Positions 9,601-60,200 of a stretch of 64,000 bases of DNA are shown here, piece by piece. Within the stretch, counting starts at the first letter, position 1. The number at the start of each line of letters is the position of its first letter. The stretch spans positions 1,674,001 to 1,738,000 of the forward strand of contig NZ_JAPENL010000001.1 in assembly GCF_026342015.1 (NCBI RefSeq). Reading direction: 5' to 3'. A program made the translations under genes and the position numbers. The stretch comes from Micromonospora lupini. Lineage in GTDB: Bacteria; Actinomycetota; Actinomycetes; Mycobacteriales; Micromonosporaceae. The notes under the pieces are model-generated. The model was given only the letters and a program-made list of their open reading frames with translations, searched no databases and was not told where the DNA came from.

Positions 9601-12600
9601 GTGGACGTACAGGTGGCCGTCGAGGGCGCCGACGCCGCCGGCCGCCGGAGCATCGGCATCTACGCCCGGGAGGCCGGCGGGGGTCCCGACGCCGGGTGGA
9701 CGCGGCACGCGATCGGCACGCTCGCGCCGACGCCGCACACGCCACCCGCCCCGGTGGCCGCATTGCCGCAGGGCTCGGTCGAGGTGGACGCGGGCGACCT
9801 GTACGAGACCCTGTCCGACCACGGTTACCAGTACGGGCCGGTGTTCCAGGGCCTGCGGTCGGCCCGACGCCTGGACAGCCAGGTCAGCGCCGAGGTGGAG
9901 TTGCCCGCCGAGGAACCCGTCGACGGATTCGCCGTGCACCCGGCGCTGCTGGACGCTGCCCTGCACGCCGTCGTCGGTGTGCTCAACGACCCGGCCCGTC
10001 TGCTGCTGCCGTTCTCCTGGACGGGAGTCCGGCGGCACGGCGACATCCCCCGGCGGCTGCGGGTGACGGCCGCGGCGGACCGCCCGGACACCGCCGCGCT
10101 GCTGCTGAGCGACGAGAACGGCCGGCCGGTCGTCACCGTGGAGTCGGTCGCGCTGCGCCCGGCCGGAGCCGACCTGCTCGGCGACCCCGACGCCCTGCCG
10201 TTTCACGAGCTGCGGTGGCAACCACTGGAACCGACAGGCACCCCCACCACGGGCGAACCGCTCATCGAGCGGCTGGCGCCCGGTGAGCCGGACATGCTCC
10301 TGGAGCGTCTCCCCGCCGTGCTGGAGCGGCTGCGCTCCTGGATCGCCGACGGGCCGGAGGGAACCGTCCTCGCCCTTGTCGCGCGCACCGGTGACCTTAC
10401 CGCCGCGGCCACCCGTGGGCTGGTGGGCTGCGCGCAGACCGAGCATCCCGGCCGGATCGTCTGGCTGGAGAGCGACGACGCCGCGTCCGACGCCGAGGTG
10501 CACCAGGCGGTACGGGCCGTCCTGGCGGCCGGTGAGACACAGGCCAGGCTGCACGATGGACACCTGTTCGTGCCTCGTCTGACCCGGACGGCGCAGACCG
10601 AGCCGGAGCGACCCCCGGTCCTCGATCCGGACGGCACGGTGCTCATCACGGGCGGGACCGGGGAACTGGGACTGCTGTTCGCGCGGCACCTGGTGCAGGT
10701 ACACGGCGTACGTCATCTGGTGCTGGCCAGCCGCAGTGGCAGCGCGACGCCCGCCGCCGCCGAGGCCGAGCGCCAGCTCGGCGAGGCGGGCGCCGAGGTG
10801 ACCGTGGTGGCCTGCGACATCGCGGACCGGGACCAGGTCGCGGCCCTGCTGGCCGGGCTGGACCGCCGGCTCACCGCGGTCGTGCACGCCGCCGGCATCC
10901 TCGACGACGCGATCCTCACGTCGCTGACCTCCGAGCAGCTGGAACGGGTGGTACGCGCCAAGGCGGTGAGCGCCTGGAACCTGCACGAGCTGACCGCCTC
11001 GCACGACCTCGACGCGTTCGTGCTGTTCTCCTCGATGGCCGGTGTCCTGGCACTCCCCGGCCAGGCGAACTACGCCGCGGCCAACGTCTTCCTCGACGCC
11101 CTCGCCGCGCACCGGCACGCCCTGGGGTTGCCCGCCCAGGCCCTGGCCTGGGGATACTGGGACCGGGCCTCGGCGATGACCGATCACCTCTCGGACGCCG
11201 ACGTCGCGCGGATGGCCCGCAGCGGCCTGATTCCGCTGACCACTGCCGAGGGCCTCAGCTACTTCGACCGGGCGCTGCGCCGGCCGGAGACGGAACTGGT
11301 GCTGATCCACCCCGACCCTCGCGCGCTGCGTGAGCAGGCCCGGGAGGGCACTCTGCCAGCGGTGCTGCGGGACCTGGTGAGCCGGTCGCCGGGCCGGCCC
11401 ACCGCCGCTGTCGACTGGCGCGAACGGCTGGCCGCAGCACCGGCGACGGAGCGCGGCGTGCTCTCCCTCGAACTGGTCCTCGCCGAGGCCGCCACCGTGC
11501 TCGGTCGCGCCGGAACCGACCGGATGGCGGCGGAGAAGTCCTTCAAGGAGCAGGGCTTCGACTCGCTCACCGCTGTGGAGCTGCGCAATCGGCTGGGCAC
11601 GGCCACCCGGCTGCGGCTGCCGGCCACGGCCGTCTTCGACTACCCGACCCCGGCGCTGCTGGCCGGGTTCGTCGACGACCAGTTCACCAGCACGCCGGTC
11701 ACCGTGCCTGCCGCGACGGCCACGAGCGCCGTCCCGGTGGACGACGACCCGATCGTGGTGGTCGGGATGGGCTGCCGGTTCCCGGGTGGAGTGACCTCAC
11801 CCGAAGAGCTGTGGGAACTGGTGGTGGAGGGCCGGGAGACGGTGTCGGACTTCCCGGTGAACCGCGGCTGGGACCTGGATGAGCTTTTCGGAACGGGCCC
11901 GAACACCTCGCTGACCCGGCGCGGCAGTTTCCTGCACGACGCCGGTGACTTCGACGCGGACTTCTTCGGGATGAGTCCTCGGGAGGCTCTGGCCACCGAT
12001 CCTCAGCAGCGGCTGTTGTTGGAGACGGCGTGGGAGACGATCGAACACGCCGGGATCGACCCCACCACCCTGCGCGGTTCCCGCACCGGCGTCTACGCCG
12101 GCGTCATGTACGCGGAGTACGGCGCGCGCCTGCTGCAGACGTCCCGAGCCGAGCTGGCCGGATATTTCGCTACCTCGTCGACGAACAGCGTCGCGTCGGG
12201 GCGGATCGCCTACACCCTCGGCCTGGAGGGGCCGGCAGTCACCATCGACACGGCCTGCTCATCGTCGTTGGTGGCTATCCACCAGGCCGCGACCGCCCTG
12301 CGCAACGGCGAATGCGACCTCGCCCTCGCCGGCGGCGCCACGATCCTGGCGACCCCCGGGATCTTCGTCTCGTTCAGTCAACAGCACGGGCTCTCGGAGG
12401 ACGGACGCTGCAAACCCTTCTCCGACACCGCCGACGGCACCGGCTGGAGCGAAGGCGCAGGACTCCTCCTGCTCGAACGCCTCACCGACGCCCACACCAA
12501 CAACCACCACATCCACGCCATCCTGCGCGGCTCCGCCATCAACCAAGACGGCGCCTCCAACGGACTCACCGCCCCCAACGGCCCCGCCCAACAACGCGTC

Positions 12601-15600
12601 ATCCACGCCGCCCTCACCAACGCCCACCTCACCCCCACCGACATCGACGCCATCGAAGCCCACGGCACCGGCACCACCCTCGGCGACCCCATCGAAGCCC
12701 AAGCACTCATCAACACCTACACCCCCCACCGCACCCACCCCCTCTACCTCGGCTCCATCAAATCCAACATCGGCCACACCCAAGCCGCCGCCGGAGCCGC
12801 CGGCACCATCAAAATGATCCAAGCCATCAACCACGCCACCCTCCCCCCCACCCTCCACACCACCACCCCCACCCACCACATCGACTGGCACACCACCCCC
12901 CTACAACTGCTCACCACCACCACACCCTGGCCCACCACCAACCACCCCCGCCGCGCCGCCATCTCCTCCTTCGGCATCTCCGGCACCAACGCCCACATCA
13001 TCATCGAACAACCACCCACCCCCACCACACCAAGCCCAGCGCCACACCAGCAGACAAACGAGCCACCCAGCCCCGAAGCAGCCCAGGCAACAGGCACGGA
13101 AAACGGCGTCAAGACCGCCGAAGAAACGGCCCCAAAAGCAGGCCGCAAAACACGCGACAAGACCGGCCAGGACACCGGCGTCAAAACCGGCGAGGAAACA
13201 AGCCGCGAAACGGGCCAGGACACGGGCGAAGACTCAAGCCAGGACGCAAGTCCGGAGTCAGGTCAGGAAAGCGGCCGGGAATCAGACCAGGAGTCGGGTC
13301 AAGAGGCCGACTGGACCACACCGTGGCTCATCTCCGCGAAAACACCACAAGCCCTCACCGCCTACGCCCAACAACTCACCCACCACCTCGACACCCACCC
13401 CCACACCCCACCCGCCGCCATCGCCGCCACACTCCACCACCGCACCCGCTTCCCCCACACCGCCCTCATCTTCAACACCCACCAACTCCACGCCCTCGCC
13501 ACCAACCAACCCGGACCCACCCACCTCACCAACCCACCCCCCACCGGCAAAACCGCCTACCTCCTCACCGGCCAAGGCAGCCAACACCTCAACATGGGCC
13601 GCCAACTCCACCACACCTACCCCGCCTTCGCCCACGCCTTCGACACCACCTGCGCCGCCCTCGACCCCCACCTCCCCCAACCCCTCAAAACCATCATCTG
13701 GGGCACCAACCCCCACCACCTCAACCAAACCCTCTACACCCAACCCGCCCTCTTCGCCATCCACACCGCCCTACACCACCTCCTCACCACCCTCAACCTC
13801 ACCCCCGACTACTACCTCGGCCACTCCATCGGCGAACTCACCGCCGCCCACCTCGCCGGACTCTGGACCCTCACCGACACCGCCCACCTCATCACCACCC
13901 GCGCCACCCTCATGCACCACCTCCCACCCGGCGGCACCATGCTCGCCATCAACACCCACCCCCACAACCTCCACCACACCCTCACCCACCACCCCACCGC
14001 CACCATCGCCGCCCACAACTCCCCCACCAACACCGTCATCGCCGGCCCCACACACACCCTCAAAACCCTCGCCCAACACTGGCGAAACGAAGGCTACAAA
14101 GTCACCCCCCTCAACGTCTCCCACGCCTTCCACTCACCCCTCATGCACCACGCCGCCCAACAATTCGCCAAAACCGCCGCCACCGTCACCTACCACCCCA
14201 CCACCACACCCATCATCTCCAACCTCACCGGAACCATCGCCACCACCGAACAACTCACCAACCCCCACTACTGGGCCACCCTCATCGAACAACCCGTCCA
14301 ATTCGCCACCGGCCTCCACACCCTCCACAACCACGGCGTCACCACCTACCTCGAACTCGGACCCGACGCCACCCTCACCCACCTCACCCACGAAAACCTC
14401 CCCACCACCACCGCCCACCCCACCACCCGCAAACACCAACAAGAAACCACCACCCTCCTCACCACCCTCGCCCACACCCACCACCTCCCACCCCCCACCA
14501 CACCACCCACCACCAACCTCCCCACCTACCCCTTCCAACACCACACCTACTGGCTCACGGACGAGGCCAAGACGGACGCGGCCGGGCTCGGGCTCGTGGC
14601 CGATCCCCACCCGCTGCTCGGCGCGCGGCTCAACCTGCCCGACGACGGCCTCGTCCTCACCGGCCGGATCGGTCTCAGGACCCAACCGTGGCTGGCCGAC
14701 CACGCGCTCGGCGGTGTCCGCCTCGTGCCCGGCAGCGCGTTCTTCGACCTGGCCCTGCACGCCGGTTCGCTCACCGACGCTCCGCACGTGCAGGAGCTGA
14801 CCCTGCAGCAACCTCTGGTGCTACCGGACCGCACGGCTGTCGACGTCCAGGTCGCCATCGCGGCCACCGACGATCCGGGCGAGTGGACGATCGCGATCCG
14901 CAGCCGGGACGACGACGAGTGGACCGAGCACGCGACAGGCGTCCTCACGGCGACACCGCCGATGCCGTCCGGCGGAGCGGCCGCGTGGCCCCCGCCCGGC
15001 GCCACGCCGCTGCCGGTCGTGGACTTCTATCTGGACCGGGAGCAGCTCGGCTACGAGTACGGCCCGGTCTTCCAGGGACTGACCCAGGCGTGGCGCACCG
15101 GCACCGGCGTAGCCGCCGAGATCACCCTGCCGGCGGACCTCGACGTGACCGGCACCCACCTGCACCCAGCTCTGCTGGATGCGGCGCTGCACACCATCCA
15201 TCTACTGCGCGACGACGCCCCCGGCACACCCCGGCACGCGCCGTACACCTGGGCTGGCAGCCTGCACCGCGACCCGGATGCGCCGACAGTTCTGCGGGTC
15301 ACCACGACCCCGGCGTCCGAGCCGGACCGCTACACCATCGCCGTCGCCACGCCGTCGTCACCGGAGCCGGTCGCCACCCTGTCGGTGACCACCCGCCCGG
15401 TCGCCACCGAGGCGGGCGGCGCGCTGCGCAACGCTCTGTTCGAACTGACCTGGGTGCCGCTGCCCGCCACGAACACGCCCACCATCGGCTGGACCGGACT
15501 CGTCCTCGACGAGGACTCCGGCGGCGAGCCGGAGAACGTCCTGCGGGTCACCACCGAGGTGCTGTCCCGGCTGCGGGCGCATCGCGACGCCGACTCCGAC

Positions 15601-17283: not shown

Positions 17284-20200
17284 TGCAGATGACAAGCAAC
17301 GAGGATCGCCTACGGGAGCACGTACGACGGCTCGCCCGCGAGGTCGACGAGGCCCAGCGGACCGTCCGGGATCTGGAGTACCGCGCCCGTGAGCCGATCG
17401 CGGTGGTGGGCATGGGTTGTCGTTTCCCCGGGGGTGTGCGGTCGGCCGATGACCTGTGGGACTTGGTCGTTCAGGGCCGCGACGCCGTATCCGGATTCCC
17501 CACCGGACGAGGCTGGGACATCGACGCCCTCTACGACCCCGACCCCGACCACCCCGGCACCACCTACTGCCGCGAAGGCGGCTTCCTGCACGACGCCGGT
17601 GACTTCGACGCGGACTTCTTCGGGATGAGTCCTCGGGAGGCTCTGGCCACCGATCCTCAGCAGCGGCTGTTGTTGGAGACGGCGTGGGAGACGATCGAAC
17701 ACGCGGGGATCGACCCCACCACCCTGCGCGGCACCCGCACCGGCGTCTACGCCGGGATCATGTACTCCGACTACGGCGGTCGTCTGATCCAACGAACGCC
17801 TGAAGATGTCGAGGCGTACGTGATGACGGGCAGCGCCGGCAGTGTGGCCTCCGGCCGCATCGCCTACACGTTGGGCCTCGAAGGCCCCGCCGTCACCATC
17901 GACACCGCCTGCTCCTCATCACTGGTCGCCATGCACCACGCCGCCACCGCCCTACGCAACGGCGAATGCGACCTCGCCCTCGCCGGCGGCGCCACCATCA
18001 TGGCCACCCCCAACGTCTTCATCGAATTCTCCCGCCAACGCGGCCTCGCCCCCAACGGACGCTGCAAACCCTTCTCCGACACCGCCGACGGCACCGGCTG
18101 GAGCGAAGGCGCAGGACTCCTCCTGCTCGAACGCCTCACCGACGCCCACACCAACAACCACCACATCCACGCCATCCTGCGCGGCTCCGCCATCAACCAA
18201 GACGGCGCCTCCAACGGACTCACCGCCCCCAACGGCCCCGCCCAACAACGCGTCATCCACGCCGCCCTCACCAACGCCCACCTCACCCCCACCGACATCG
18301 ACGCCATCGAAGCCCACGGCACCGGCACCACCCTCGGCGACCCCATCGAAGCCCAAGCACTCATCAACACCTACACCCCCCACCGCACCCACCCCCTCTA
18401 CCTCGGCTCCATCAAATCCAACATCGGCCACACCCAAGCCGCCGCCGGAGCCGCCGGCACCATCAAAATGATCCAAGCCATCAACCACGCCACCCTCCCC
18501 CCCACCCTCCACACCACCACCCCCACCCACCACATCGACTGGCACACCACCCCCCTACAACTGCTCACCACCACCACACCCTGGCCCACCACCAACCACC
18601 CCCGCCGCGCCGCCATCTCCTCCTTCGGCATCTCCGGCACCAACGCCCACATCATCATCGAACAACCACCCACCCCCACCACCAACACCCAAGACACCAC
18701 CTCACAGCCACACCAGCAGACAGACGAGCAACCCACCCCCGAAGCACCACAGGAAACCGGCGTCAACACCGCCGAAGAAACGGCCCAAAAAGCAGGCCGC
18801 AAAACACGCGACAAGACCGGCCAGGACACCGGCGTTAAAACCGGCGAGAAAACAGACGCCGAAACAGGTGAAGACTCGCGACGGGACGCGAGCCTGAAGT
18901 CAGGTCAGGACACGGGCCAGCAATCAGGTCAGGAAAGCGGCCGGGAATCAGACCAAGAGTCGGGGCACGACACCGAGCAGGCCGACTGGACGACGCCGTG
19001 GCTCATCTCCGCGAAAACACCACAAGCCCTCACCGCCTACGCCCAACAACTCACCCACCACCTCGACACCCACCCCCACACCCCACCCGCCGCCATCGCC
19101 GCCACACTCCACCACCGCACCCGCTTCCCCCACACCGCCCTCATCTTCAACACCCACCAACTCCACGCCCTCGCCACCAACCAACCCGGACCCACCCACC
19201 TCACCAACCCACCCCCCACCGGCAAAACCGCCTACCTCCTCACCGGCCAAGGCAGCCAACACCTCAACATGGGCCGCCAACTCCACCACACCTACCCCGC
19301 CTTCGCCCACGCCTTCGACACCACCTGCGCCGCCCTCGACCCCCACCTCCCCCAACCCCTCAAAACCATCATCTGGGGCACCAACCCCCACCACCTCAAC
19401 CAAACCCTCTACACCCAACCCGCCCTCTTCGCCATCCACACCGCCCTACACCACCTCCTCACCACCCTCAACCTCACCCCCGACTACTACCTCGGCCACT
19501 CCATCGGCGAACTCACCGCCGCCCACCTCGCCGGACTCTGGACCCTCACCGACACCGCCCACCTCATCACCACCCGCGCCACCCTCATGCACCACCTCCC
19601 ACCCGGCGGCACCATGCTCGCCATCAACACCCACCCCCACAACCTCCACCACACCCTCACCCACCACCCCACCGCCACCATCGCCGCCCACAACTCCCCC
19701 ACCAACACCGTCATCGCCGGCCCCACACACACCCTCAAAACCCTCGCCCAACACTGGCGAAACGAAGGCTACAAAGTCACCCCCCTCAACGTCTCCCACG
19801 CCTTCCACTCACCCCTCATGCACCACGCCGCCCAACAATTCGCCAAAACCGCCGCCACCGTCACCTACCACCCCACCACCACACCCATCATCTCCAACCT
19901 CACCGGAACCATCGCCACCACCGAACAACTCACCAACCCCCACTACTGGGCAAGCCTCATCGAACAACCCGTCCAATTCGCCACCGGTCTGCACACCCTG
20001 CACAACCACGGCGTCACCACCTACCTCGAACTCGGACCCGACGCCACCCTCACCCACCTCACCCACGAAAACCTCCCCACCACCACCGCCCACCCCACCA
20101 CCCGCAAACACCAACAAGAAACCACCACCCTCCTCACCACCCTCGCCCACACCCACCACCTCCCACCCCCCACCACACCACCCACCACCAACCTCCCCAC

Positions 20201-23200
20201 CTACCCCTTCCAACACCACACCTACTGGCTGCACCCCACCGCCGGCGGCGACGTCAGGACGGCGGGCCTCACGCCGACCGGGCACCCGTTCCTGGGCGCG
20301 GCGCTGCGCCAGGCGGACGGCACGGGCTGGGTCTTCACCGGCCGCATCGCGGCGGGCAGCCGCGCGTGGCCCATGGTCAGCGGGACACCTGTCGTACCGG
20401 GAGCGGCACTTGTGGAGCTGCTCCTGCACGCGGGCGCGCAGATCGACGCCCCGCGGGTGGCCGCACTCGATGTCGCCGTGCCGATCACCCTCGACGGAGA
20501 TGGCGCCCTCACGGTTCAACTGCGGGCCGGCGCACCGGACGGGGAGGGACACGTACCGATCGAGATCTACGGGAGCGCCGACGGCGCCGTCTGGACCCGG
20601 CACGCCACCGGGTCGCTGGCAGCCGAGGCGCACGTGGGCGGGCCAACCGACGAGGAATGGCCGCCCGGCGGGGAGCCGGTCGATGTGGACGGCCTCTACG
20701 GCGAGCTGGACGCCGACGGGCTGACGGTTCCGCCCGACCTGCGCCTGGTGCGCGCCGCCTGGGCGCGGGACGACGTCCGTTACGCCGAGATCTCAATCCC
20801 GACCGCCGACGACGCGTACGCCATCGCCCCTGCTCTGCTCGACGCCGCGCTGCACGCGGCCCTGCCGGGGGCGGGCCCGGCCGGCGCGGTGGCGTTGCCC
20901 TGGACCTGGCGGGACGTACAGCTCCACGCCACTGGATCGGCGACACTGCGGGTGCGGGTCAGCCCGAACGGCACGGACGATGTCGATCTGCTGGTCAGCG
21001 ACCCCGCCGGCCATCGGGTGCTCACCGCCCGGGTGCGGCTGGACGACCGAACCGTCCCGGCCACGACGACGGCCGTCGCGCTCGCCCAGGCGTACGTCCC
21101 GGACTGGGTGACGATCGAGGGGCCGGAGACCGCCGACCCGGGCCGGTGGGCGGCGCTTGACGATCCGGAGCTGGCACAGGCCCTGAGTGGTCCCGGTCGG
21201 ACGGTCGCCGCGTCGCCGACAGGTGCTGAGGACGCGGTGCTCCTCGTCTGCCGGCCACGGCCCGGTGACGATGACGACCTGCCGGCGCGCGCCCGCGAGG
21301 CCGCCGAGCACACACTCGACGTGGTACGCGAGTGGTTGGAGCGCGATCCCGACGGCCGCCTCCTGGTGGTGCTGACCGACGGTGGGGTCGCCGTGGGGGA
21401 CGAGGACGTACGCGACCTCGGCGCCGCGGCGATCTGGGGCCTGCTCGCCTCGCCCCGCCTGGAGGACACCGATCGGATCCGGCTCGTCGACGCCCCGCCG
21501 GACTCCGCCGTCATCGCAGCCGCGCTTGCCACACAGGAGCCCCGGGTCGCCGCTCGCGACGGTCTGCTGCTGGCCCCCCGGCTCACCCGCGTCACCAGCA
21601 CGCCCGGCGGCACGGCTGGGCAGGTCGACGAGGAGGACGCGGTCCTGGTGACCGGCTCGGGGCCGTACGCCGATGTCCTGGCCGAGAGGTTCGGCCACGC
21701 GCACGTGCTGCGCGTGGCCGACCCCGGCGAGCCGGGCGCGTTGGAGGCGGCGGTGCGGGAGATACCGGCGGACCGGCGGTTGGCCGCCGTGATCGACACC
21801 GACGCGGCCCGGCACCCGGCCCGCCCGGAAACGGCCTGGCGGCTGCACCGCCTGACGATGGACCGGCAGCCCGCCGCGTTCGTCACGCTGGCAGTCATCG
21901 CCGATCCCGCCGGCGCGACCGGCGATCATGGTCCCGACCTGCACGACGAGGCGGCGGCCGGCTTTCTTGGCGCCCTGACCGCGGTGCGTCGGGCTGCCGG
22001 TCTGCCGGCGCTCACCATCGTCTTCGCCACCGAACCGACCACCGACGTCCTCCCGCTCGTGGAGCAGGCGTGGGAGACCGGGCAACCGGTGACCGTGCTC
22101 GCCGACCTCCCGCCGGGCCGGCTGCGCGCGCGGGCGCGGGCCGGAGTGCTGCCGGCGGCACTGTCCGGGCTGGTGCCCGCGCGGCTGCGGCGGGCGGCGG
22201 CTGCGGCGGGGGCGGAGGGCGGCTCACTCCGCCGTCGGCTGTTGCCGATGAGTGCCGCCGACCGGCTGGCGGCGATGCTCGCCGTGGTCCGTACCCACGT
22301 GGCCGGCGTGCTCGGCCACGCCGATCCAGCCGGGATCGAACCCGGGCGGGCGTTCAAGGAGTTGGGCTTCGACTCGCTGACCGCGGTGTCCCTGCGCAAC
22401 CGGCTGGTCGAGGCGACAGGCCTGGCGCTGTCGCCCACGCTGGTGTTCGACCACCCGTCGCCGTCCGCGCTCGTCGACGTGCTGATCGCCGAGCTGCTCG
22501 GGGAGGAGGTCGCACCGTCCCGGACCGTCGCGGCACACCGGGGAACCACAGACGAACCCGTGGCGATCGTGTCGATGGGCTGCCGGTTCCCCGGCGGGGT
22601 GACAGGGCCGGAGGACCTGTGGCGGCTGACCATCGAGGAGAGGGACGCGGTCGGGGGTTTCCCTGTCGATCGGGGCTGGGACGCGGCAGGCCTGTACGAC
22701 CCGGACCCGGATCACACCGGGACCAGCTACACGCGTGAGGGTGGCTTCCTCTACGACGCGGCGCACTTCGACGCCGACTTCTTCGGGCTGAGCCCGCGCG
22801 AGGCGTACGCCACCGACCCGCAGCAGCGGCTGCTCCTCAAGGTGGCCTGGGAGGCGATCGAGCGGGCCGGCATCGACCCGGCCGCCCTGCACGGAAGCGA
22901 CACAGGCGTGTTCGTCGGTGTCGTCTACCAGGACTATCGCTCACGGCTGCACCGCAAGCCGGACGGGTACGAGGGGTACCTCGACATCGGCAGCGCGGCG
23001 AGCGTCGCCTCCGGCCGGATCTCGTACGTCCTGGGTCTGGAAGGCCCCGCCGTGACTGTCGACACCGCCTGTTCCTCGTCGCTTGTGGCGATCCATCAGG
23101 CGGCGCAGTCCCTGCGGCAGGGCGAGTGCGATCTCGCGCTGGCCGGCGGGGCGACCGTGATGGCCACGCCCAGCACCTTCGTGGAGTTCAGCCGGCAGCG

Positions 23201-31000: not shown

Positions 31001-34000
31001 CACGCCGGGGCCCGGGCGGGCGCACCGCACCTGGCGGATCTCACCCTGGAAGCGCCACTGACCTTCATCGGCCGGGACGCCGTCCACCTCCAGGTCCGGG
31101 TCGGCGAGACGGACGGCGACGGGCGTCGGACGGTCACCGTCGCCTCGCGTACCGACGACGAGGCGGCGTGGACCCGGCACGCCACCGGAACGCTTGCGGC
31201 CGGGGCGTCGACCGAGCCCCCGGTGGTGCCCGGGATGTGGCCGCCGGTGGGAGCGGAGCCGATCGACCTGGTCGACGCCTACGAGCACCTCGCCGAATCG
31301 GGTTACGAGTACGGGCCGGTGTTCCAGGGGCTGCGGGCCGCCTGGCACGACGGCGACGACCTGATCGCCGAGGTCACCCTCCCCGACGAGGCCGAGCCGG
31401 ACGGTTTCGCGGTGCACCCGGCGCTCCTCGACGCCACCCTGCACGTCCTGGCCGTCGCATCCGCCGCCACGGCGCAGACCGCGGCCCGGATCCCGTTCAC
31501 CTGGTCCGGCGTCAGCCTGACCGCGACCGGCGCACGGGAACTGCGGGTCCGGATCTCGACGTCCGGCGACGACCGGTTCCGGGTCCGGACCACCGACCAG
31601 CTCGGCAACCCGGTCCTCGACGTCGCCGAACTCGCCGTCCGCCCGATCGACCTCGACCAGCTACGCCGCTCGCAGCAGCCGGAGCAGAACGCGCTACGGC
31701 TGGACTGGGTGCCGTTCGCGGATCTCCCAGCGGACGGGACCGGGCCGGACGACACCCGAGTACTCGTGGTCGACGGCACGCCGCACCTGATCGAGGCGGT
31801 CCAGAGTGCGCTCACCGCGCTGCGCGACGAGATCGCGCAGGAACGGCCTGCGCAGGCCCGACTCGCGCTGGTGACCCGCCACGCCGTCGAGGCGGTCCCC
31901 GGCGAAGGAGTCGAGGACCTGGCCGCCGCGGCGGTGTGGGGTCTCGCCCGCTCCGCCCAGACCGAGAACCCGGACCGGATCGTCCTCGTCGACCTGGACA
32001 CCACGACCGCCGTGGACACGGTCCCGGCGATCGTCGCCGCCGCCGTCGCGGCGGGAGAAGACCAGATCGCCGTACGCGAGCGCAGGATGCGGGTTGCCCG
32101 ACTGGTTTCCACGGGGCCCCGCCAGGATCAGGGACGAGCGGCCGCGTTCGACCCCGAGCGTGCCGTGTTGGTCACCGGTGGCACCGGATCGCTGGGCGCG
32201 GTCACCGCACGGCACCTCGTGACGGCGTACGGCGTCCGGAGACTCGTCCTGGTGAGCCGCCGCGGCCTCTCCGCCCCCGGCGCCCCCGAGTTGCAGACCG
32301 ACCTGGAGCGGCTGGGCGCCGAGGTCGAGGTGGTGGCCTGCGACGTGACCGACCGGGCCGAGGTGGCGGCCCTGGTGGAACGGCTCGGCGCCGGGCTCGG
32401 CGCGATCGTGCACGCGGCCGGCACGCTTGACGACGCGATCCTGCCCGCGCTCACCGCCGACCAGGTGGAGCGGGTCCTGACCGCGAAGGCCGAGAGCGCC
32501 CGTCACCTTGACGAGCTGACCGAAGCGTACGACCTGAGCGCGTTCGTGCTGTTCTCGTCGATCGCGGGCACCCTGGGCTCACCCGGGCAGGCCAACTACG
32601 CTGCGGCCAACGCCTTCCTGGACGCGCTGGCCCGCCGGCGCCGGGCCAACGGACGGCCCGCGGTCGCGCTGGCCTGGGGGCCGTGGGAACAGGCCGGTGG
32701 CATGACGGGTCACCTGCAGGATGCCGACGTCGCCCGGATGGGTCGGATGGGCCTGTCCGCACTCACCGTCGAGCAGGGTCTGTCCCTGTTCGACGGCGCG
32801 CTGGCCGGGTCGGATCCGGCGGTGGTGACCGCGCGGCTGGACACCGCGGCGCTACGCCGGCAGGCATCGGCGGGTCTTCTCCTGTCGGTCCTCGCCGAGC
32901 TGATCCGCAGGCCGACGCGCCGCTCGGGTGACCGGTCCGGTGGCGGCAACCTGGTCGCGGAGCTGGCGCGGCGATCTCCCGAGGACCGTCTGACGGCGCT
33001 CGGCACCCTGGTCCGGGAACACGTCGCGACAGTGCTCGGGCACTCCGGCGGAGACCGGATCGAACGTGGCAAGGCGTTCCGGGACCTCGGCTTCGACTCG
33101 CTCAGCGCTGTCGAGTTGCGCAATCGGTTGACAGCCGCGACGGGCCTGCGTCTGCCCGCGACGGCGATCTTCGACTATCCGACTCCGGCTGCGCTCGCCG
33201 TCTTTCTCGACGAGCAGATCGTCGGAACGAGCCCGGCGCCTGCGACGCCGACCGGGGCAACCACAGTGGTCGACGACGATCCGATCGTGATCGTCGGGAT
33301 GGGTTGTCGGTATCCGGGGGGTGTGCGCTCAGCCGATGACCTGTGGGACTTGGTCGTTCAGGGCCGCGACGCCGTGTCCGGGTTCCCCACCGGACGAGGC
33401 TGGGACATCGACGCCCTCTACGACCCCGACCCCGACCACCCCGGCACCACCTACTGCCGCGAAGGCGGCTTCCTGCACGACGCCGGCGACTTCGACGCCG
33501 ACTTCTTCGGCATGAGCCCCCGCGAAGCCCTCGCCACCGACCCCCAACAACGACTCCTGCTCGAAACCGCATGGGAAACCATCGAACACGCCGGCATCGA
33601 CCCCACCACCCTGCGCGGCACCCGCACCGGCGTCTACACCGGCATCATGTACGCCGACTACGGCGCCCGCCTCATGCACAACCCACCCCCCGGCTACGAA
33701 GGATTCCTCGGCAACGGCAGCGCCGGCAGCATCGCCTCCGGCCGCATCGCCTACACGTTGGGCCTCGAAGGCCCCGCCGTCACCATCGACACCGCCTGCT
33801 CATCGTCGTTGGTCGCCATGCACCACGCCGCCACCGCCCTGCGCAACGGCGAATGCGACCTCGCCCTCGCCGGCGGCGCCACCATCATGGCCACCCCCAA
33901 CGTCTTCATCGAATTCTCCCGCCAACGCGGCCTCGCCCCCAACGGACGCTGCAAACCCTTCTCCGACACCGCCGACGGCACCGGCTGGAGCGAAGGCGCA

Positions 34001-37000
34001 GGACTCCTCCTGCTCGAACGCCTCACCGACGCCCACACCAACAACCACCACATCCACGCCATCCTGCGCGGCTCCGCCATCAACCAAGACGGCGCCTCCA
34101 ACGGACTCACCGCCCCCAACGGCCCCGCCCAACAACGCGTCATCCACGCCGCCCTCACCAACGCCCACCTCACCCCCACCGACATCGACGCCATCGAAGC
34201 CCACGGCACCGGCACCACCCTCGGCGACCCCATCGAAGCCCAAGCCCTCATCAACACCTACACCCCCCACCGCACCCACCCCCTCTACCTCGGCTCCATC
34301 AAATCCAACATCGGCCACACCCAAGCCGCCGCCGGAGCCGCCGGCACCATCAAAATGATCCAAGCCATCAACCACGCCACCCTCCCCCCCACCCTCCACA
34401 CCACCACCCCCACCCACCACATCGACTGGCACACCACCCCCCTCCAACTGCTCACCACCACCACACCCTGGCCCACCACCAACCACCCCCGCCGCGCCGC
34501 CATCTCCTCCTTCGGCATCTCCGGCACCAACGCCCACATCATCATCGAACAACCACCCACCCCCACCACCACCCACGACACCACCACGAACCCGGAAACC
34601 AACACCACAACCAGCGAAGAAACCGCACCCGAAACACGCCCGGAAACGGGTAAGGACGCAAGTCCGGAATCAGATCAGAACCCGAGTCTGGAGCCAGGCG
34701 GAAAAACCGAGCAGGCCGACTGGACCACACCGTGGCTCATCTCCGCGAAAACACCACAAGCCCTCACCGCCTACGCCCAACAACTCACCCACCACCTCGA
34801 CACCCACCCCCACACCCCACCCGCCGCCATCGCCGCCACACTCCACCACCGCACCCGCTTCCCCCACACCGCCCTCATCTTCAACACCCACCAACTCCAC
34901 GCCCTCGCCACCAACCAACCCGGACCCACCCACCTCACCAACCCACCCCCCACCGGCAAAACCGCCTACCTCCTCACCGGCCAAGGCAGCCAACACCTCA
35001 ACATGGGCCGCCAACTCCACCACACCTACCCCGCCTTCGCCCACGCCTTCGACACCACCTGCGCCGCCCTCGACCCCCACCTCCCCCAACCCCTCAAAAC
35101 CATCATCTGGGGCACCAACCCCCACCACCTCAACCAAACCCTCTACACCCAACCCGCCCTCTTCGCCATCCACACCGCCCTACACCACCTCCTCACCACC
35201 CTCAACCTCACCCCCGACTACTACCTCGGCCACTCCATCGGCGAACTCACCGCCGCCCACCTCGCCGGACTCTGGACCCTCACCGACACCGCCCACCTCA
35301 TCACCACCCGCGCCACCCTCATGCACCACCTCCCACCCGGCGGCACCATGCTCGCCATCAACACCCACCCCCACAACCTCCACCACACCCTCACCCACCA
35401 CCCCACCGCCACCATCGCCGCCCACAACTCCCCCACCAACACCGTCATCGCCGGCCCCACACACACCCTCAAAACCCTCGCCCAACACTGGCGAAACGAA
35501 GGCTACAAAGTCACCCCCCTCAACGTCTCCCACGCCTTCCACTCACCCCTCATGCACCACGCCGCCCAACAATTCGCCAAAACCGCCGCCACCGTCACCT
35601 ACCACCCCACCACCACACCCATCATCTCCAACCTCACCGGAACCATCGCCACCACCGAACAACTCACCAACCCCCACTACTGGGCCACCCTCATCGAACA
35701 ACCCGTCCAATTCGCCACCGGCCTCCACACCCTCCACAACCACGGCGTCACCACCTACCTCGAACTCGGACCCGACGCCACCCTCACCCACCTCACCCAC
35801 GAAAACCTCCCCACCACCACCGCCCACCCCACCACCCGCAAACACCAACAAGAAACCACCACCCTCCTCACCACCCTCGCCCACACCCACCACCTCCCAC
35901 CCCCCACCACACCACCCACCACCAACCTCCCCACCTACCCCTTCCAACACCACACCTACTGGCTCACGGAGGGTCCCGCCCACGACCTGACGGCCAGCGG
36001 GCTCACCTCGACCGGACACCCACTCCTCGGAGCCGGGCTGACCCGCCCCGACGGCGGCCTCGTCCTCACCGGACGACTCGCCCCCGGCACGACGAGCTGG
36101 CTCACGGAGCACGCGCTCGACGAGGTGCCCCTGCTGCCGGGAACCGCGCTCGTCGACATGGCGCTGCACGCGGCCCGTGCCGCCGGGTACGCCTCGGTCG
36201 AGGAACTGACCATCCACGCGCCACTGCGGCTCGACGTGGCCCAGGACGCTCAGCTGACGGTGGAGGCCCCGGACCCCGACAACCCGGACCGGGTCGGGCT
36301 GTCCATCCACTCCCGGCGCGACGACGAATGGGTCCTGCACGCCAGCGGCACCCTCGCGACGGCGCCGGTCGAGCCCGGCGACCCGGGATCCTGGCCGCCG
36401 GCCGGCGAGACCTATCCCGTGGACACCCTGTACGAGGGGATGACCGACCTCGGATACCGGTACGGGCCGCTGTTCCAGGGCCTCACCCGAGCGTGGTCCA
36501 CCGCGGACGGGGTGCTGGCGGAGATCAACCTTCCGGACGGGACCGACGTCGCGGGCTTCGGGGTCCATCCGGCCCTGCTTGACGCGGCCCTGCACGCCAT
36601 CCAGGTGATCCGCCAGGCCGAATCCGGGGAGCCGCCGCACGCGCCGTTCGCCTGGGCCGGCATTGCCGAGCACCCGGCCGATGGTCACCCCACGTCGCTA
36701 CGCGTCCACCTACGCGCCGAGTCCGCACCGGACACGTACTCGCTGGAACTGACCGATCCGGACGGCCGTCCGCGTCTGAGCATCCGGTCGCTGACCACAC
36801 GCCCCATCCGACTCGGCGAGGACTCGGCTGTCGGTCGCAACTCGCTGTTCGAGCTGGCCTGGCCGGCCGCGCCGACGGGCGGAACGCCTACCGACGGGCC
36901 GTGGGCGGTGCTCGGTACCGAGCCGGTTGCCGGCATCTCGGCGGACGTCACCCGCTACGAGAGTCTTGCTGCCCTGGTGGTCGCGCTGAACTCCGGCGAA

Positions 37001-38750: not shown

Positions 38751-41700
38751 ATGACAAATGGCAACGAACTTCTCGACGCTCTGCGCGCATCCGTCAAGGA
38801 GACCGAGCGGCTTCGGAAGCAGAACCGCCAGATCCTGGCCGAGGCGCAGGAGCCGATCGTCATCATCGGCATCGGCTGCCGCTATCCGGGCGGTGTCCGT
38901 AGCCCGGAGGACCTGTGGGACCTGGTCCTCAACGAGCGCGACGTGGTGAGCCCGTTCCCGCGCGACCGCGGCTGGAACGTCGAGGAGCTCTACGACCCGG
39001 AGCCCGGCCTGGTGGGCAAGTCCTACGCCCGCGAGGGCGGCTTCCTCGACGACGCCGACTACTTCGATCCGGAGTTCTTCGGGATGAGCCCCCGCGAGGC
39101 GCTCTCCACCGACCCGCAACAGCGGCTGCTCCTGGAGACCGCGTGGGAGGCGGTCGAGCGCGCCGGCATCGACCCGACGTCGCTGAAGGGCAGTCGTACC
39201 GGTGTGTTCGCCGGTGTCATGTACAACGACTACGGCGCGCGGCTGCTCTACCGGGGCAGCGCCGGCCTGGCGGCGTTCGACGGCAGCGCGGGCAGCGTGG
39301 CGTCCGGCCGGGTGTCCTACACGCTGGGTCTGGAGGGCCCCGCGGTCACTGTGGACACGGCCTGTTCGTCGTCGCTTGTCGCCGTACACCTGGCCTGTCA
39401 GGCCCTGAAGCAGGGTGACTGCTCGCTCGCTCTGGCCGGCGGCGTCGCGGTGATGGCGACGCCTGTGGCGTTCCTGGAGTTCAGCCGGCAGAAGGGGCTG
39501 GCGCCGGACGGGCGCTGCAAGGCGTTCGCGGCCGGCGCGGACGGCGTGGGCTGGGGTGAGGGCGCGGGTCTGTTCCTGTTGGAGCGGTTGTCCGACGCGC
39601 AGCGCAACGGCCACAAGATCCTCGCCGTGGTGCGTGGGTCGGCGGTCAACCAGGACGGCGCGTCGAACGGGCTGACCGCGCCGAACGGTGTGGCCCAGCA
39701 GCGCGTGGTGCGACAGGCGTTGGCGAACGCGCGCCTGGCCGGGGACGAGGTCGACGTCGTGGAGGCGCATGGGACGGGTACGACGTTGGGTGACCCGATG
39801 GAAGCCGAAGCGCTCCTGGCGACCTACGGACAGGACCGACCCACCGACCAACCCCTCTACCTCGGCTCGGTCAAATCCAACATCGGTCACACCCAAGCCG
39901 CCGCCGGCGCCGCCGGCATCATCAAAATGATCTACGCCCTACGCCACGCCACCCTGCCCGCCAGCCTCCACATCGACGAACCCACCCCCCACGTCGACTG
40001 GTCCACCGGCACCATCCGCCTCCTCACCCACACCACCGACTGGCCACAACACCAACGCCCCCGCCGCGCCGGCATCTCCGCCTTCGGCGTCTCCGGCACC
40101 AACGCCCACGTCATCCTCGAACAAGCCCCCGACCCCACCACCACCACCAACCCCGACCCCGACCCCGCTGCCACCGACACGGCCGGCAACGAGAACACCA
40201 GCCCGTGGCCCACCACCTGGCTGCTATCCGCCCGCGACACCCACGGCCTGCACCGCCAAGCCACCACCCTGCACCACTGGAACACCACCACCGGCCACCA
40301 CGAACACCCCGACACCATCGCCACCACCCTCGCCCACCACCGCACCCACCACCCCTACCGCGCCGCCATCCTCACCACCGACGAACACCCCCACCTCACC
40401 ACCACCCTGCACACCCTCACCACCACCACCGACCACCCCGCCCTCATCACCACCCCACCCACCGGACCCACCACCGGCAAAACCGTCTTCGTCTTCCCCG
40501 GCCAAGGCAGCCAATGGGACCGCATGGCCACCACCCTGCTCCCCACCTCCCCCACCTTCCGCCAACACCTACACGACTGCGCCGACGCCCTCACCCCCCA
40601 CACCGGCTGGAACCTCATCGACGTCCTCACCCAACACCCCGACGCACCACCACTCGACGGACCCGACATCATCCAACCCGCCCTCTGGGCCGTCATGATC
40701 TCCCTCGCCAAACTCTGGCAACACCACGGCATCCACCCCGACGCCGTCATCGGCCACTCCCAAGGCGAAATCGCCGCCGCCCACATCGCCGGCGCCCTCA
40801 CCCTCGACGACGCCGCCACCCTCATCACCCGCCGCTCCCAAACCCTCACCCACCTACCACCCGGCGCCATGGCCGCCATCAACCTCCCCGCCCACACCAT
40901 CACCGAACACCTCACCACCTACAACAACCCCACCACCACCCTCACCATCGCCGCCCACAACAGCCCCACCCACACCGTCATCGCCGGCAACCCCGAACAA
41001 ATCCACCACTACATCAACCACTGCCACACCCACAACATCAACGCCAAACTCATCCCCGTCACCTACGCCAGCCACAGCCACCACATCGAACCCCTCAAAC
41101 CCCACCTCCTCACCACCCTCAACACCATCACCCCCCACCCCGCCACCATCCCCTTCCACACCACCACCAACCCCCACCCCACCGGCGAACCCACCGACAC
41201 CACACACCTCACCGCCCAATACTGGTACGACAACCTCCGCAACCCCGTCCACCTCCACCCCACCATCACCACCCTGCTCACCACCGGCCACACCACCTAC
41301 ATCGAAACCAGCCCCCACCCCGTCCTCACCCCCGCCATCACCACCACCACCGAACACCACCCCCAACACCCCAAAACCACCATCACCGGCACCCTCCGCA
41401 AAAACCACCACGACCCCACCCAATTCCTCACCAACCTCGCCACCATCCACACCCACACCACCCACACCCCCACCTGGCCCACCAACACCACCCACACCAC
41501 CACCACCCCCACCTACACCTTCGACCGGCGCCGCTTCTGGCTCGACGTGCCGTCGACGACAGGCGACCCGAGCGACGTCGGACAGGAAGCGGCCGAGCAC
41601 GGCCTGCTGGGCGCCGTGGTCGCTGTGGCAGAGGGCGACCAGCTCCTGCTGACCGGCCGGATCTCGCTGGGGACGCATCCCTGGCTCGCCGACCACGCCG

Positions 41701-45374: not shown

Positions 45375-48300
45375 ATGAGTGACAACGAAGAGAAGCTCCG
45401 GGAATACCTGAAGCGTACGACCGCCGACCTGCGTCAGGCTCGCCGACGCCTGCGCGAGGCCGAGGAGCGGCACCTGGAACCGATCGCGGTCATCGGCGTC
45501 AGCTGCCGGTTCCCCGGCGGGGTGCGCAGCCCGGAGGACTTCTGGGAACTGCTGGAGACCGGCACCGACGCCATCGGCCCCGGACCCACCGACCGCGGTT
45601 GGGACCTGCGCGAGCTGTACCACCCGGACCCGGACCACTCGAGCACCACGTACGCCACCGAGGGTGGCTTCCTGGACGACGCCGGCGACTTCGATCCGGA
45701 GTTCTTCGGGATGAGCCCCCGCGAGGCCCTGGCGACCGACCCGCAGCAACGGATCCTGCTGGAGCTGGCCTGGGAGGCGTTCGAACATGCCGGCATCGTG
45801 CCGGCGTCCGTGCGGGGCAGCCGTACCGGCGTCTTCACGGGTGTCATGTCGCAGCACTACGCCCAGGCGGTCAAGGACTTCGAGGGCTACATCATGACCG
45901 GCACGCTGAGCGCTGTCGCGTCCGGGCGGATCTCGTACACCTTCGGGTTGGAGGGTCCGGCGGTCACCGTGGACACGGCCTGTTCGTCGTCGCTTGTCAC
46001 CCTGCACCAGGCGTGCCAGTCCCTGCGGACCGGTGAGTGCGACCTCGCGCTGTCCGGTGGGGCCACCGTGATGGCCACCCCCAACGCCTTCCTGGAGTTC
46101 AGCCGCCAGCGGGGCCTGGCGCCGGACGGCCGCTGCAAGGCGTTCGCGGCAGCCGCCGACGGGACCGGTTGGGGTGAGGGCGCCGGCCTGCTGTTGTTGG
46201 AGCGGTTGTCCGACGCGCAGCGCAACGGCCACACGATCCTCGCCGTGGTACGCGGCTCGGCAGTGAACCAGGACGGCGCGTCCAACGGGCTGACCGCGCC
46301 GAACGGGCCCTCACAGCAGCGGGTCATCCAGGCCGCGCTGGCCAATGCCCGGCTCACCGCGGATCAGATCGACGCGGTGGAGGCGCATGGGACGGGTACG
46401 ACGTTGGGTGACCCGATGGAAGCCGAAGCGCTCCTGGCGACCTACGGACAGGACCGACCCGCCGACCAACCCCTCTACCTCGGCTCGGTCAAATCCAACA
46501 TCGGTCACACCCAAGCCGCCGCCGGCGCCGCCGGCATCATCAAAATGATCTACGCCCTACGCCACGCCACCCTGCCCGCCAGCCTCCACATCGACGAACC
46601 CACCCCCCACGTCGACTGGTCCACCGGCACCATCCGCCTCCTCACCCACACCACCGACTGGCCACAACACCAACGCCCCCGCCGCGCCGGCATCTCCGCC
46701 TTCGGCGTCTCCGGCACCAACGCCCACGTCATCCTCGAACAAGCCCCCGACCCCACCACCACCACCACCACCACCACCAACCCCGACCCCGGCCCCGACC
46801 CCGCTGCCACCGACACGGCCGGCAACGAGAACACCAGCCCGTGGCCCACCACCTGGCTGCTATCCGCCCGCGACACCCACGGCCTGCACCGCCAAGCCAC
46901 CACCCTGCACCACTGGAACACCACCACCGGCCACCACGAACACCCCGACACCATCGCCACCACCCTCGCCCACCACCGCACCCACCACCCCTACCGCGCC
47001 GCCATCCTCACCACCGACGAACACCCCCACCTCACCACCACCCTGCACACCCTCACCACCACCACCGACCACCCCGCCCTCATCACCACCCCACCCACCG
47101 GACCCACCACCGGCAAAACCGTCTTCGTCTTCCCCGGCCAAGGCAGCCAATGGGACCGCATGGCCACCACCCTGCTCCCCACCTCCCCCACCTTCCGCCA
47201 ACACCTACACGACTGCGCCGACGCCCTCACCCCCCACACCGGCTGGAACCTCATCGACGTCCTCACCCAACACCCCGACGCACCACCACTCGACGGACCC
47301 GACATCATCCAACCCGCCCTCTGGGCCGTCATGATCTCCCTCGCCAAACTCTGGCAACACCACGGCATCCACCCCGACGCCGTCATCGGCCACTCCCAAG
47401 GCGAAATCGCCGCCGCCCACATCGCCGGCGCCCTCACCCTCGACGACGCCGCCACCCTCATCACCCGCCGCTCCCAAACCCTCACCCACCTACCACCCGG
47501 CGCCATGGCCGCCATCAACCTCCCCGCCCACACCATCACCGAACACCTCACCACCTACAACAACCCCACCACCACCCTCACCATCGCCGCCCACAACAGC
47601 CCCACCCACACCGTCATCGCCGGCAACCCCGAACAAATCCACCACTACATCAACCACTGCCACACCCACAACATCAACGCCAAACTCATCCCCGTCACCT
47701 ACGCCAGCCACAGCCACCACATCGAACCCCTCAAACCCCACCTCCTCACCACCCTCAACACCATCACCCCCCACCCCGCCACCATCCCCTTCCACACCAC
47801 CACCAACCCCCACCCCACCGGCGAACCCACCGACACCACACACCTCACCGCCCAATACTGGTACGACAACCTCCGCAACCCCGTCCACCTCCACCCCACC
47901 ATCACCACCCTGCTCACCACCGGCCACACCACCTACATCGAAACCAGCCCCCACCCCGTCCTCACCCCCGCCATCACCACCACCACCGAACACCACCCCC
48001 ACCACCCCAAAACCACCATCACCGGCACCCTCCGCAAAAACCACCACGACCCCACCCAATTCCTCACCAACCTCGCCACCATCCACACCCACACCACCCA
48101 CACCCCCACCTGGCCCACCAACACCACCCACACCACCACCACCCCCACCTACACCTTCGTCGCCGAGCGGCACTGGCTCACGGCGAACGCCACTGTGAAG
48201 CCCGGACAGCTCGGGCTCGACGACCCCCGACACCCGATCCTGCGCGGCAGCATCAGCCCGGCCCGCAGTCAGACGACAGTCCTGAGTGGACAGCTCTCCC

Positions 48301-57231: not shown

Positions 57232-60200
57232 ATGACGAACGAGTCCAACGAGGCGAAGCTGGTCGACTACCTCAAGTGGGTCACCGGCGATCTGCACAAG
57301 GCCCGACAGCGCATCGCCGAGCTGGAGTCGGCGACGCCGGAGCCGATCGCGGTGGTGGGGATGGGTTGTCGGTATCCGGGGGGTGTGCGCTCAGCCGATG
57401 ACCTGTGGGACTTGGTCGTTCAGGGCCGCGACGCCGTGTCCGGGTTTCCCACCGGACGGGGCTGGGACATCGACGCCCTCTACGACCCCGACCCCGACCA
57501 CCCCGGCACCACCTACTGCCGCGAAGGCGGCTTCCTGCACGACGCCGGCGACTTCGACGCCGACTTCTTCGGCATGAGCCCCCGCGAAGCCCTCGCCACC
57601 GACCCCCAACAACGACTCCTGCTCGAAACCGCATGGGAAACCATCGAACACGCCGGCATCGACCCCACCACCCTGCGCGGCACCCGCACCGGCGTCTACA
57701 CCGGCATCATGTACGCCGACTACGGCGCCCGCCTCATGCACAACCCACCCCCCGGCTACGAAGGATTCCTCGGCAACGGCAGCGCCGGCAGCATCGCCTC
57801 CGGCCGCATCGCCTACACGTTGGGCCTCGAAGGCCCCGCCGTCACCATCGACACCGCCTGCTCCTCATCACTGGTCGCCATGCACCACGCCGCCACCGCC
57901 CTACGCAACGGCGAATGCGACCTCGCCCTCGCCGGCGGCGCCACCATCATGGCCACCCCCAACGTCTTCATCGAATTCTCCCGCCAACGCGGCCTCGCCC
58001 CCAACGGACGCTGCAAACCCTTCTCCGACACCGCCGACGGCACCGGCTGGAGCGAAGGCGCAGGACTCCTCCTGCTCGAACGCCTCACCGACGCCCACAC
58101 CAACAACCACCACATCCACGCCATCCTGCGCGGCTCCGCCATCAACCAAGACGGCGCCTCCAACGGACTCACCGCCCCCAACGGCCCCGCCCAACAACGC
58201 GTCATCCACGCCGCCCTCACCAACGCCCACCTCACCCCCACCGACATCGACGCCATCGAAGCCCACGGCACCGGCACCACCCTCGGCGACCCCATCGAAG
58301 CCCAAGCACTCATCAACACCTACACCCCCCACCGCACCCACCCCCTCTACCTCGGCTCCATCAAATCCAACATCGGCCACACCCAAGCCGCCGCCGGAGC
58401 CGCCGGCACCATCAAAATGATCCAAGCCATCAACCACGCCACCCTCCCCCCCACCCTCCACACCACCACCCCCACCCACCACATCGACTGGCACACCACC
58501 CCCCTACAACTGCTCACCACCACCACACCCTGGCCCACCACCAACCACCCCCGCCGCGCCGCCATCTCCTCCTTCGGCATCTCCGGCACCAACGCCCACA
58601 TCATCATCGAACAACCACCCACCCCCACCACACCAACGCCGACCCCGACGCCGGCGCGGGTCACGCCGTGGATCCTGTCCGCGAGGACGCCACAGGCCCT
58701 CACCGAGCAGGCACACCGACTAGCCAGCCACCTCGACAGTCATCCCGACGCCGATCCCGTCCACGTCGGACGTGCGCTGGCCGGCACGCGTACCCGGTTC
58801 GCCGAGCGGATGGTCGTCACGGGCACCGATCTGGACGAGTTCCGTTCGGCACTGAGGGCGTACCCGGAGGGTGGCCGTGCGGTGCGCGGCCGGGCTCAGG
58901 GACAGCCCGGCCGGGTCGCCTTCCTCCTCACCGGCCAAGGCAGCCAACACCTCAACATGGGCCGCCAACTCCACCACACCTACCCCGCCTTCGCCCACGC
59001 CTTCGACACCACCTGCGCCGCCCTCGACCCCCACCTCCCCCAACCCCTCAAAACCATCATCTGGGGCACCAACCCCCACCACCTCAACCAAACCCTCTAC
59101 ACCCAACCCGCCCTCTTCGCCATCCACACCGCCCTACACCACCTCCTCACCACCCTCAACCTCACCCCCGACTACTACCTCGGCCACTCCATCGGCGAAC
59201 TCACCGCCGCCCACCTCGCCGGACTCTGGACCCTCACCGACACCGCCCACCTCATCACCACCCGCGCCACCCTCATGCACCACCTCCCACCCGGCGGCAC
59301 CATGCTCGCCATCAACACCCACCCCCACAACCTCCACCACACCCTCACCCACCACCCCACCGCCACCATCGCCGCCCACAACTCCCCCACCAACACCGTC
59401 ATCGCCGGCCCCACACACACCCTCAAAACCCTCGCCCAACACTGGCGCGGCCAGGGTCGCAAAGTCACCGAACTCAAGGTCTCCCACGCGTTCCACTCGC
59501 CACTCATGCACGACGCCGCCGAACAGTTCGCCGAGGTCGCCGCCAAAGTCACCTACCACCCCACCACCACACCGATCATCTCCAACCTCACCGGAGAACC
59601 CGCCACCACCGAACAACTCACCGACCCCCACTACTGGGCAAGCCTCATCGAACAACCCGTCCAATTCGCCGCCGGTCTGCAAACCCTGCACAAGCACGGC
59701 GTCACCACCTATCTCGAACTCGGACCCGACGCCGTCCTCAGTGGCCTTGCCCGGGAGACGCTCCGCGACCCGACCACCGCCGAGCTGCTTCCGCTGATCC
59801 GTCGCGATCGGCCCGAGGCGACAACAGTCCTCGGGGCGGCAGCGGCGGCGTGGGTGAGTGGACGGAACGTGGACTGGACGGAGGTTGTCGGCACGGCCGC
59901 CCCGGGGCCGGCCTTCCCTCTGCCGCGGTATCCGTTCCAACGGCAGACGTACTGGCTCGAATCCGGCGCCGCGAGCGGGTCGGACGACGAGAACGAGGGT
60001 CAGTTCTGGGACGCCGTGACGAACCAGGACGCCAAGGCGCTCGCCGGCCTGCTGGGCGATTCGGACGCCACCGGGGCCCTGCGCTCGCTCCTGCCGGCCC
60101 TCGCCGACTGGCGCCGGCAGGGAAGCTGGTGGCACCGCATCGGCTGGCGGCCCGACACACGCGTCGCGACGACGGCCACCACCGGCCGGTGGATCGTGGC

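Follow-up and report, generated by a model that had tools for sequence, protein, structure and literature searches.

In-frame 12-bp tandem repeats at the KS/linker-domain joint of three modules of a type I PKS

Three modules of a six-gene type I modular PKS with 11 KS domains, contained in the 64-kb stretch of DNA analysed here (the window), carry in-frame tandem arrays of 12-bp units between KS and AT, within a joint that is predicted to be disordered. When the first KS is counted as the loading module, these are modules 2, 3 and 6. We favour, with a probability of roughly two in three, the explanation that the arrays arose by slippage or unequal recombination at a position where changes in length are tolerated, and that gene conversion acts on their flanks only. 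Both the skewed, shared segments termed GRINS and length variation at the KS/linker-domain (KS-LD) joint are already known; the growth of tandem units that breaks GRINS in three modules is rated here as a new form of such variation.

The arrays and their position within the module

In-frame runs of 12, 14 and 8 tetrapeptide units had been reported at 13159-13302, 18813-18980 and 34619-34714 in a first-pass annotation of the window, and both positions and copy numbers were reproduced. All features are listed in Table 1.

Table 1. Arrays, flanking GRINS and KS-LD joints in the window. Identity is the mean best identity; skews are mean absolute GC and TA values.
Feature	Position	Strand	Remarks
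Module 2 array, 12-bp units	13111..13302	+	12 clear units from 13159, 4 degenerate units before
Module 3 array, 12-bp units	18765..18980	+	14 clear units from 18813, 4 degenerate units before
Module 6 array, 12-bp units, weaker	34586..34714	+	8 units from 34619
Module 2 joint, non-periodic part between KS-side tract and array	13029..13110	+	DNA alignment of four joints
GRINS, module 2 KS side	12211..13080	+	identity 0.949, GC skew 0.47, TA skew 0.38
GRINS, module 2 linker domain and AT	13291..14610	+	identity 0.991, skews 0.69, 0.42
GRINS, module 3 KS side	17761..18750	+	identity 0.969, skews 0.48, 0.36
GRINS, module 3 linker domain and AT	18931..20280	+	identity 0.984, skews 0.67, 0.43
GRINS, module 6 KS side	33271..34590	+	identity 0.989, skews 0.41, 0.31
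GRINS, module 6 linker domain and AT	34681..36030	+	identity 0.989, skews 0.68, 0.43
Module 7 KS-LD joint, (ACC)4	40122..40190	+	alignment with module 8
Module 8 KS-LD joint, (ACC)8 and one extra 6-mer	46740..46826	+	alignment with module 7
Module 10 joint, without array, and its ordinary (unrecoded) linker domain	58632..58926	+	tract comparison

Periodicity was evaluated by comparison with shuffled sequences. At a lag of 12 nt, DNA identity amounts to 0.61 in module 2, 0.56 in module 3 (computed over 18774-18980) and 0.47 in module 6, against 0.31-0.32 in codon shuffles, and for none of the three arrays was the observed value reached in 5000 shuffles. At lags of 6 and 9 nt no excess identity over codon shuffles was found in any of them. 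At the protein level, where 5000 residue shuffles were made per array, the identity at a lag of 4 residues was equalled 13 times in module 6 and never in modules 2 and 3. The shuffles rule out the arrays as a chance product of composition. In modules 2 and 3 the register extends upstream over four degenerate units, from 13111 and 18765. Tandem Repeats Finder, at a score of 50, reports 24-bp pieces only, located at 13150-13229 in module 2 (3.3 copies, 67% matches) and at 18900-18951 in module 3 (2.2 copies), and no repeat over the module 6 array at 34619-34714; since only parts are found, the arrays look like old, worn minisatellites.

In-frame minisatellites in bacterial coding sequences have units that are multiples of 3 and keep the frame, while their copy number differs between copies. 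The arrays are alike in each of these features: their units are repeated in tandem beyond chance, and the copy number varies among three modules with near-identical flanks. They differ in being very degenerate, and in that the variation is seen between modules of one genome.

The arrays follow the final strand of KS and precede PWLISAKT, the first linker-domain strand. When module 3 is aligned by phmmer to the DEBS chain 11sz, a first block ends at query residue 437, corresponding to residue 465, and a second one starts at query residue 531, corresponding to residue 466; the array thus adds 93 residues between neighbouring positions of the chain. Gene B has its array at residues 499-567 and its Pfam linker-domain match (PF22621) at 575-620, and in gene C, too, this match begins downstream of the array. 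The non-periodic stretch of the joint that precedes the periodic part measures at most 91 nt in module 3 and about 16 nt in module 6.

The AlphaFold2 model of module 3, obtained from a 52-row alignment, has a mean pLDDT of 86.0 and a pTM of 0.80. Most of KS, LD and AT is modelled with pLDDT values of 85-98, two loops dropping to 64-65; for residues 435-534 the values stay under 50 and no secondary structure is formed, the array itself being at about 30-42. The model of the array-free module 10 reaches a mean pLDDT of 92.1 and a pTM of 0.86. Structure prediction, suggested as a check in the first pass, thus returned a shapeless array within folded surroundings: the array is predicted to be disordered, and the folding around it to be intact.

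The array had been thought to lie inside the folded KS-AT adaptor. This is not the case, as the insertion precedes the first LD strand, the Pfam match comes after it and the array is modelled without structure; Pfam position, 11sz alignment and AlphaFold2 together exclude a location within the folded linker. Because the array sits in the joint ahead of the folded linker domain, the worry over a broken adaptor falls away, and the extra length is likely tolerated, no folded domain being touched.

The same region is treated in the accessible part of PMC10423236, where it is described as random coil in AlphaFold2 models, bafilomycin module 5 is reported to carry a natural insertion of about 25 residues there, and junctions placed in it (around us13-us17) are reported to give a wild-type-like product. 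The array occupies the same place, likewise has no predicted structure and adds length at a site that accepts it; it differs from that insertion in measuring about 90 residues, in consisting of tandem units and in being present in three modules with differing copy numbers. Extra residues near the KS-AT linker are also described for trans-AT PKSs, whose linker domain may carry LINKS insertions (PMC11907408); these are helical, with a proposed role in lateral contacts, whereas the array is predicted to be disordered. No description of tandem repeats, minisatellites or low-complexity arrays at a PKS KS-AT linker was found in the accessible text of the literature searched.

Near-identical flanks and divergent arrays

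The KS and AT blocks around the arrays proved to be near-identical, as claimed in the first pass. In pairwise comparison, modules 2, 3, 6 and 10 show 0-2 mismatches over the 627 nt upstream of the joint, and modules 2, 3 and 6 show 0-7 over the 1249 nt downstream of it; neither tract contains an indel. The KS-side tract ends at the same nucleotide in all four modules (13028, 18682, 34569 and 58631 in modules 2, 3, 6 and 10). The arrays differ at 16-39% of aligned sites, plus gaps: 31 of 195 positions with 21 gap columns between modules 2 and 3, 47 of 121 with 89 gap columns between modules 2 and 6, and 52 of 136 with 71 gap columns between modules 3 and 6. For modules 2 and 3, the 31 differences in 195 array sites compare with 7 in 1876 in the flanks; the Fisher test of array versus flanks was run on 31/195 and on a flank count nearly equal to 7/1876. 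The gaps in the alignment of these two joints are 12 and 9 nt, meaning that some changes do not correspond to one whole unit. Between the same modules, dS is 0.73 in non-GRINS KS DNA and 0.38 in the array. Since array divergence falls between the values of the flanks and of non-GRINS KS DNA, the arrays of modules 2 and 3 likely share an ancestor that postdates the modules and predates the latest homogenisation of their flanks.

According to the accessible parts of PMC9899208 and PMC10394414, GRINS are regions of 500 bp or more that are over 80% identical to a second region in the same PKS and have a mean GC and TA skew above 0.15. Our test was based on ungapped 150-nt fragments of one strand, in place of the published pairwise alignment. 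It identified 11 high-identity segments, 10 of which are skewed; the latter range between 870 and 2220 bp, with mean best identities of 0.947-0.991, GC skews of 0.41-0.69 and TA skews of 0.31-0.43. The eleventh, at 52201-52950, fails the skew test (0.05 and 0.15). When 400-nt windows are used, six islands over parts of KS and AT show a GC skew of about -0.3 to -0.76 and a mostly strong positive AT skew.

The segments that flank the arrays exceed the GRINS thresholds for both identity and skew, and they cover KS-AT, a position that this literature also reports in another PKS. The arrays fall short of these thresholds, with GC skews of +0.05, +0.08 and -0.09 and a best identity of 0.60-0.81 in most 150-nt fragments, and GRINS are broken at each of them (13080-13291, 18750-18931 and 34590-34681 in modules 2, 3 and 6), a feature absent from the published description, in its accessible part. 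AT skew inside the arrays remains 0.73-0.78. At third positions the GC skew of the arrays is like that of ordinary PKS DNA and their AT skew like that of GRINS, and the synonymous codon choice of the module 2 and module 3 arrays leans towards GRINS in the 5' half and away from it in the 3' half. The A-rich third positions and the GRINS-like codons of the 5' half mean that the array is not wholly outside the recoding process.

Modules 7 and 8 constitute another GRINS pair, with 3 substitutions in about 1.7 kb and a sole length change of 18 nt, which falls at the KS-LD joint, where modules 2, 3 and 6 bear their arrays. Tandem Repeats Finder calls nine copies of CCA at 46753-46779, in the module 8 joint. 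GRINS are unbroken in both modules and, as the homogenised tract crosses the joint, the repeat number most likely changed later. Within this cluster, the pair provides the best evidence for slippage, as opposed to conversion simply not having occurred; it likewise argues against repeats acting as a barrier to conversion.

In module 10 GRINS are broken at an ordinary linker domain. The KS-side tract is identical to those of modules 2 and 3 over 627 nt, and the AT is again identical to that of module 2 from 58927, over 521 nt. The module is a natural mosaic, in which the common GRINS KS end and AT are separated by an ordinary linker domain.

Repeats at the joint in other PKSs

An array-only protein search, with E values up to 10 and 177 candidates, covered proteins of 0.55-1.75 times the query length that have short words in common with it, and returned the own protein only; because it missed the module 2 protein of the same genome, absence elsewhere is a weak negative. 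When the array DNA was compared with 160 congeneric genomes, it matched its own genome, while 4 of the other 159 gave one weak hit each (28-41 nt, E values of 4e-4 to 8e-4). All 3 hits in the own genome lie within the cluster, and a repeat spread through the genome is thereby rejected; a known linker family was likewise rejected, on the weak negative of the protein search. The first pass had considered that the array might turn out to be a common conserved linker in unrelated PKSs; neither the protein search, with the same weakness, nor the DNA search, with its four weak hits, points that way.

No second genome with the array was found among the homologous loci, the 101 relatives or the 160 congeneric genomes. 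Of the loci, 45 match the cluster at 26-47% identity, one of them also at 88% over only 17 residues; in the 101 relatives, identity is at most 55% outside the own genome among the matches listed. In the 160 congeneric genomes, the C-terminal portion encoded by the last gene reaches at most 43%, again among the matches listed.

A survey was conducted on 233 foreign KS-AT linkers with flanking DNA, a set enriched for skewed DNA, together with 10 of the 11 own KS, the loading KS being missed by the linker pattern. The linkers of modules 3, 2 and 6 measure 193, 186 and 142 aa, lengths attained by 1, 2 and 16 foreign linkers, respectively. At the strictest cut, a strong joint repeat is present in 5 of the 216 foreign joints tested, about 0.7 being expected from the shuffle criterion; their best lags are 9, 15 and 18 nt. 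The clearest foreign case is Frankia sp. QA3 (L019:3094-3190), where (GVPAD)n is repeated in 6.5 copies of 15 bp with 92% matches. A TTEPTP/TTEPTR repeat occupies the joint at 12646 of L227, from another genome. Among 221 linkers of 120 homologous proteins, P0005 and P0102 bear joint repeats of 7 and 4 residues. A strict protein-repeat detector, which misses the window's own worn array, found 17 repeats in 240 proteins with 319 joints; 2 are at the joint, which makes up 0.9% of residues (p = 0.009), and 15 are in other regions, so that the joint is not the sole such place. The first 120 of the 240 proteins had been retrieved with words that include the array, which may bias this set.

The presence of different units at the KS-LD joint of other PKSs indicates that this site takes up unrelated repeats, if seldom. 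The description of the insertion as odd has to be tempered to that extent, given the few other actinobacterial PKSs with different tandem repeats at the joint.

Origin and meaning of the arrays

In the explanation that we prefer, in-frame 12-bp repeats would gain or lose units by slippage or unequal recombination at the KS-LD joint, array length would be near-neutral, with weak selection on it, and gene conversion would homogenise GRINS on both sides and leave the array out. Weighing against it are the 9-nt gap between the module 2 and module 3 joints, the GRINS-like traits of the arrays, the dN/dS ratio given below and the survey, in which neither repeats nor greater length of the joint are significantly linked to GRINS-like DNA. 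The initial alternatives of a flexible spacer or a by-product of recombination were the right pair of ideas, attached to the wrong site, inside a folded adaptor.

The first of these, an array selected in modules 2, 3 and 6 as a charged flexible spacer that tunes the distance between KS and AT or the access of the carrier protein, is unlikely, although several observations agree with it. Tetrapeptide pattern and charge are kept in the three modules, which also share AT domains of one common sequence family, presumably malonate-type as read from GHSIG and HAFH. The dN/dS ratio between the module 2 and module 3 arrays is 0.33 over 64 codons, in an alignment that favours matching residues and so lowers dN; being different from 1, it suggests that array composition may be constrained. 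The fraction of D, E, K and R in the array-bearing joints is 0.26-0.31, and a fraction no smaller than the lowest of these is found in 12 of 130 longer foreign joints: the joints are indeed charged, as initially stated, but not exceptionally so. Against selection stands module 10, which has the same KS end and AT without an array, as well as the length variation of the module 7 and 8 joints, based on a different repeat. Furthermore, the repeats that occupy the joint in other PKSs are unrelated, and no related array was found outside the own genome, either by the weak protein search or, apart from 4 weak hits, in the 160 congeneric genomes.

Slightly less probable still is that the array, once formed as a by-product of recombination, became a barrier, differences in joint length stopping conversion tracts so that the KS and LD-AT halves are homogenised separately. 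The common end point of the KS-side tracts in four modules, the exact splitting of three GRINS at the array and the switch of partner at the joint of module 10 would all be accounted for. The homogenised tract of modules 7 and 8, however, crosses the joint despite the 18-nt difference in length. Nor is the association between joint repeats and GRINS significant in the survey, where "GRINS-like" is defined by skew alone: repeats occur in 4 of 64 GRINS-like joints and in 3 of 152 others (p = 0.20), linker length does not differ significantly between 74 GRINS-like and 159 other joints (p = 0.13), and linkers of at least 130 aa are 18 of 74 and 23 of 159, respectively (p = 0.051). An earlier, smaller survey, limited to one sign of skew, contained 3 GRINS-like joints. 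Opposite skew (GC +0.55, AT -0.55) was observed upstream of the joint at L133:7021 and nearby, in PKS modules of another congeneric genome.

An assembly error is very improbable: near-identical modules are hard to assemble, and the nearest relative's sequence, a partial Micromonospora lupini protein of 838 aa that is 92% identical to the C-terminal part of the last PKS gene, starts inside the shared AT and does not include its own joint, but units and arrays differ within about 130-220 bp, which ordinary reads should span, the frame is intact in three genes, and the 7.35 Mb genome is assembled in 4 contigs with a completeness of 100; chance low complexity, the companion explanation, is excluded by the shuffles. 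The 92% identity to that protein also makes Micromonospora the likely genus.

Whatever their origin, the arrays indicate that the joint naturally holds about 90 extra residues, and changes in length while the surrounding 1.7-1.9 kb are near-identical. It may therefore help in choosing sites for domain-swap junctions and inserted spacers, and serve as a natural marker for the ends of homogenised tracts between GRINS copies. More speculatively, and with a low probability, the KS-LD joint might be the one length-free position of the module, where repeats cut conversion into KS and LD-AT halves, thus shaping domain co-evolution and the clean exchange of AT cassettes. Should the array act as a barrier, repeat growth would be linked to the way in which AT specificity is spread over the assembly line.

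As to the limits of the cluster, the last PKS gene (57232-61692) has matches to KS, AT, ACP and a dimerisation element, and in part to KR; no Pfam match to a thioesterase was found in it at the cut used. The frame at 62782-63999, on the minus strand, is still open at the end of the window and shows a weak match to the esterase FrsA, far below the curated cut-off; its product is possibly a hydrolase adjoining the cluster. At the opposite side, the cluster is bordered by a gene on the minus strand (1043-2896) for a 2-oxoacid:acceptor oxidoreductase alpha subunit, matched by TIGR03710 above the cut-off.
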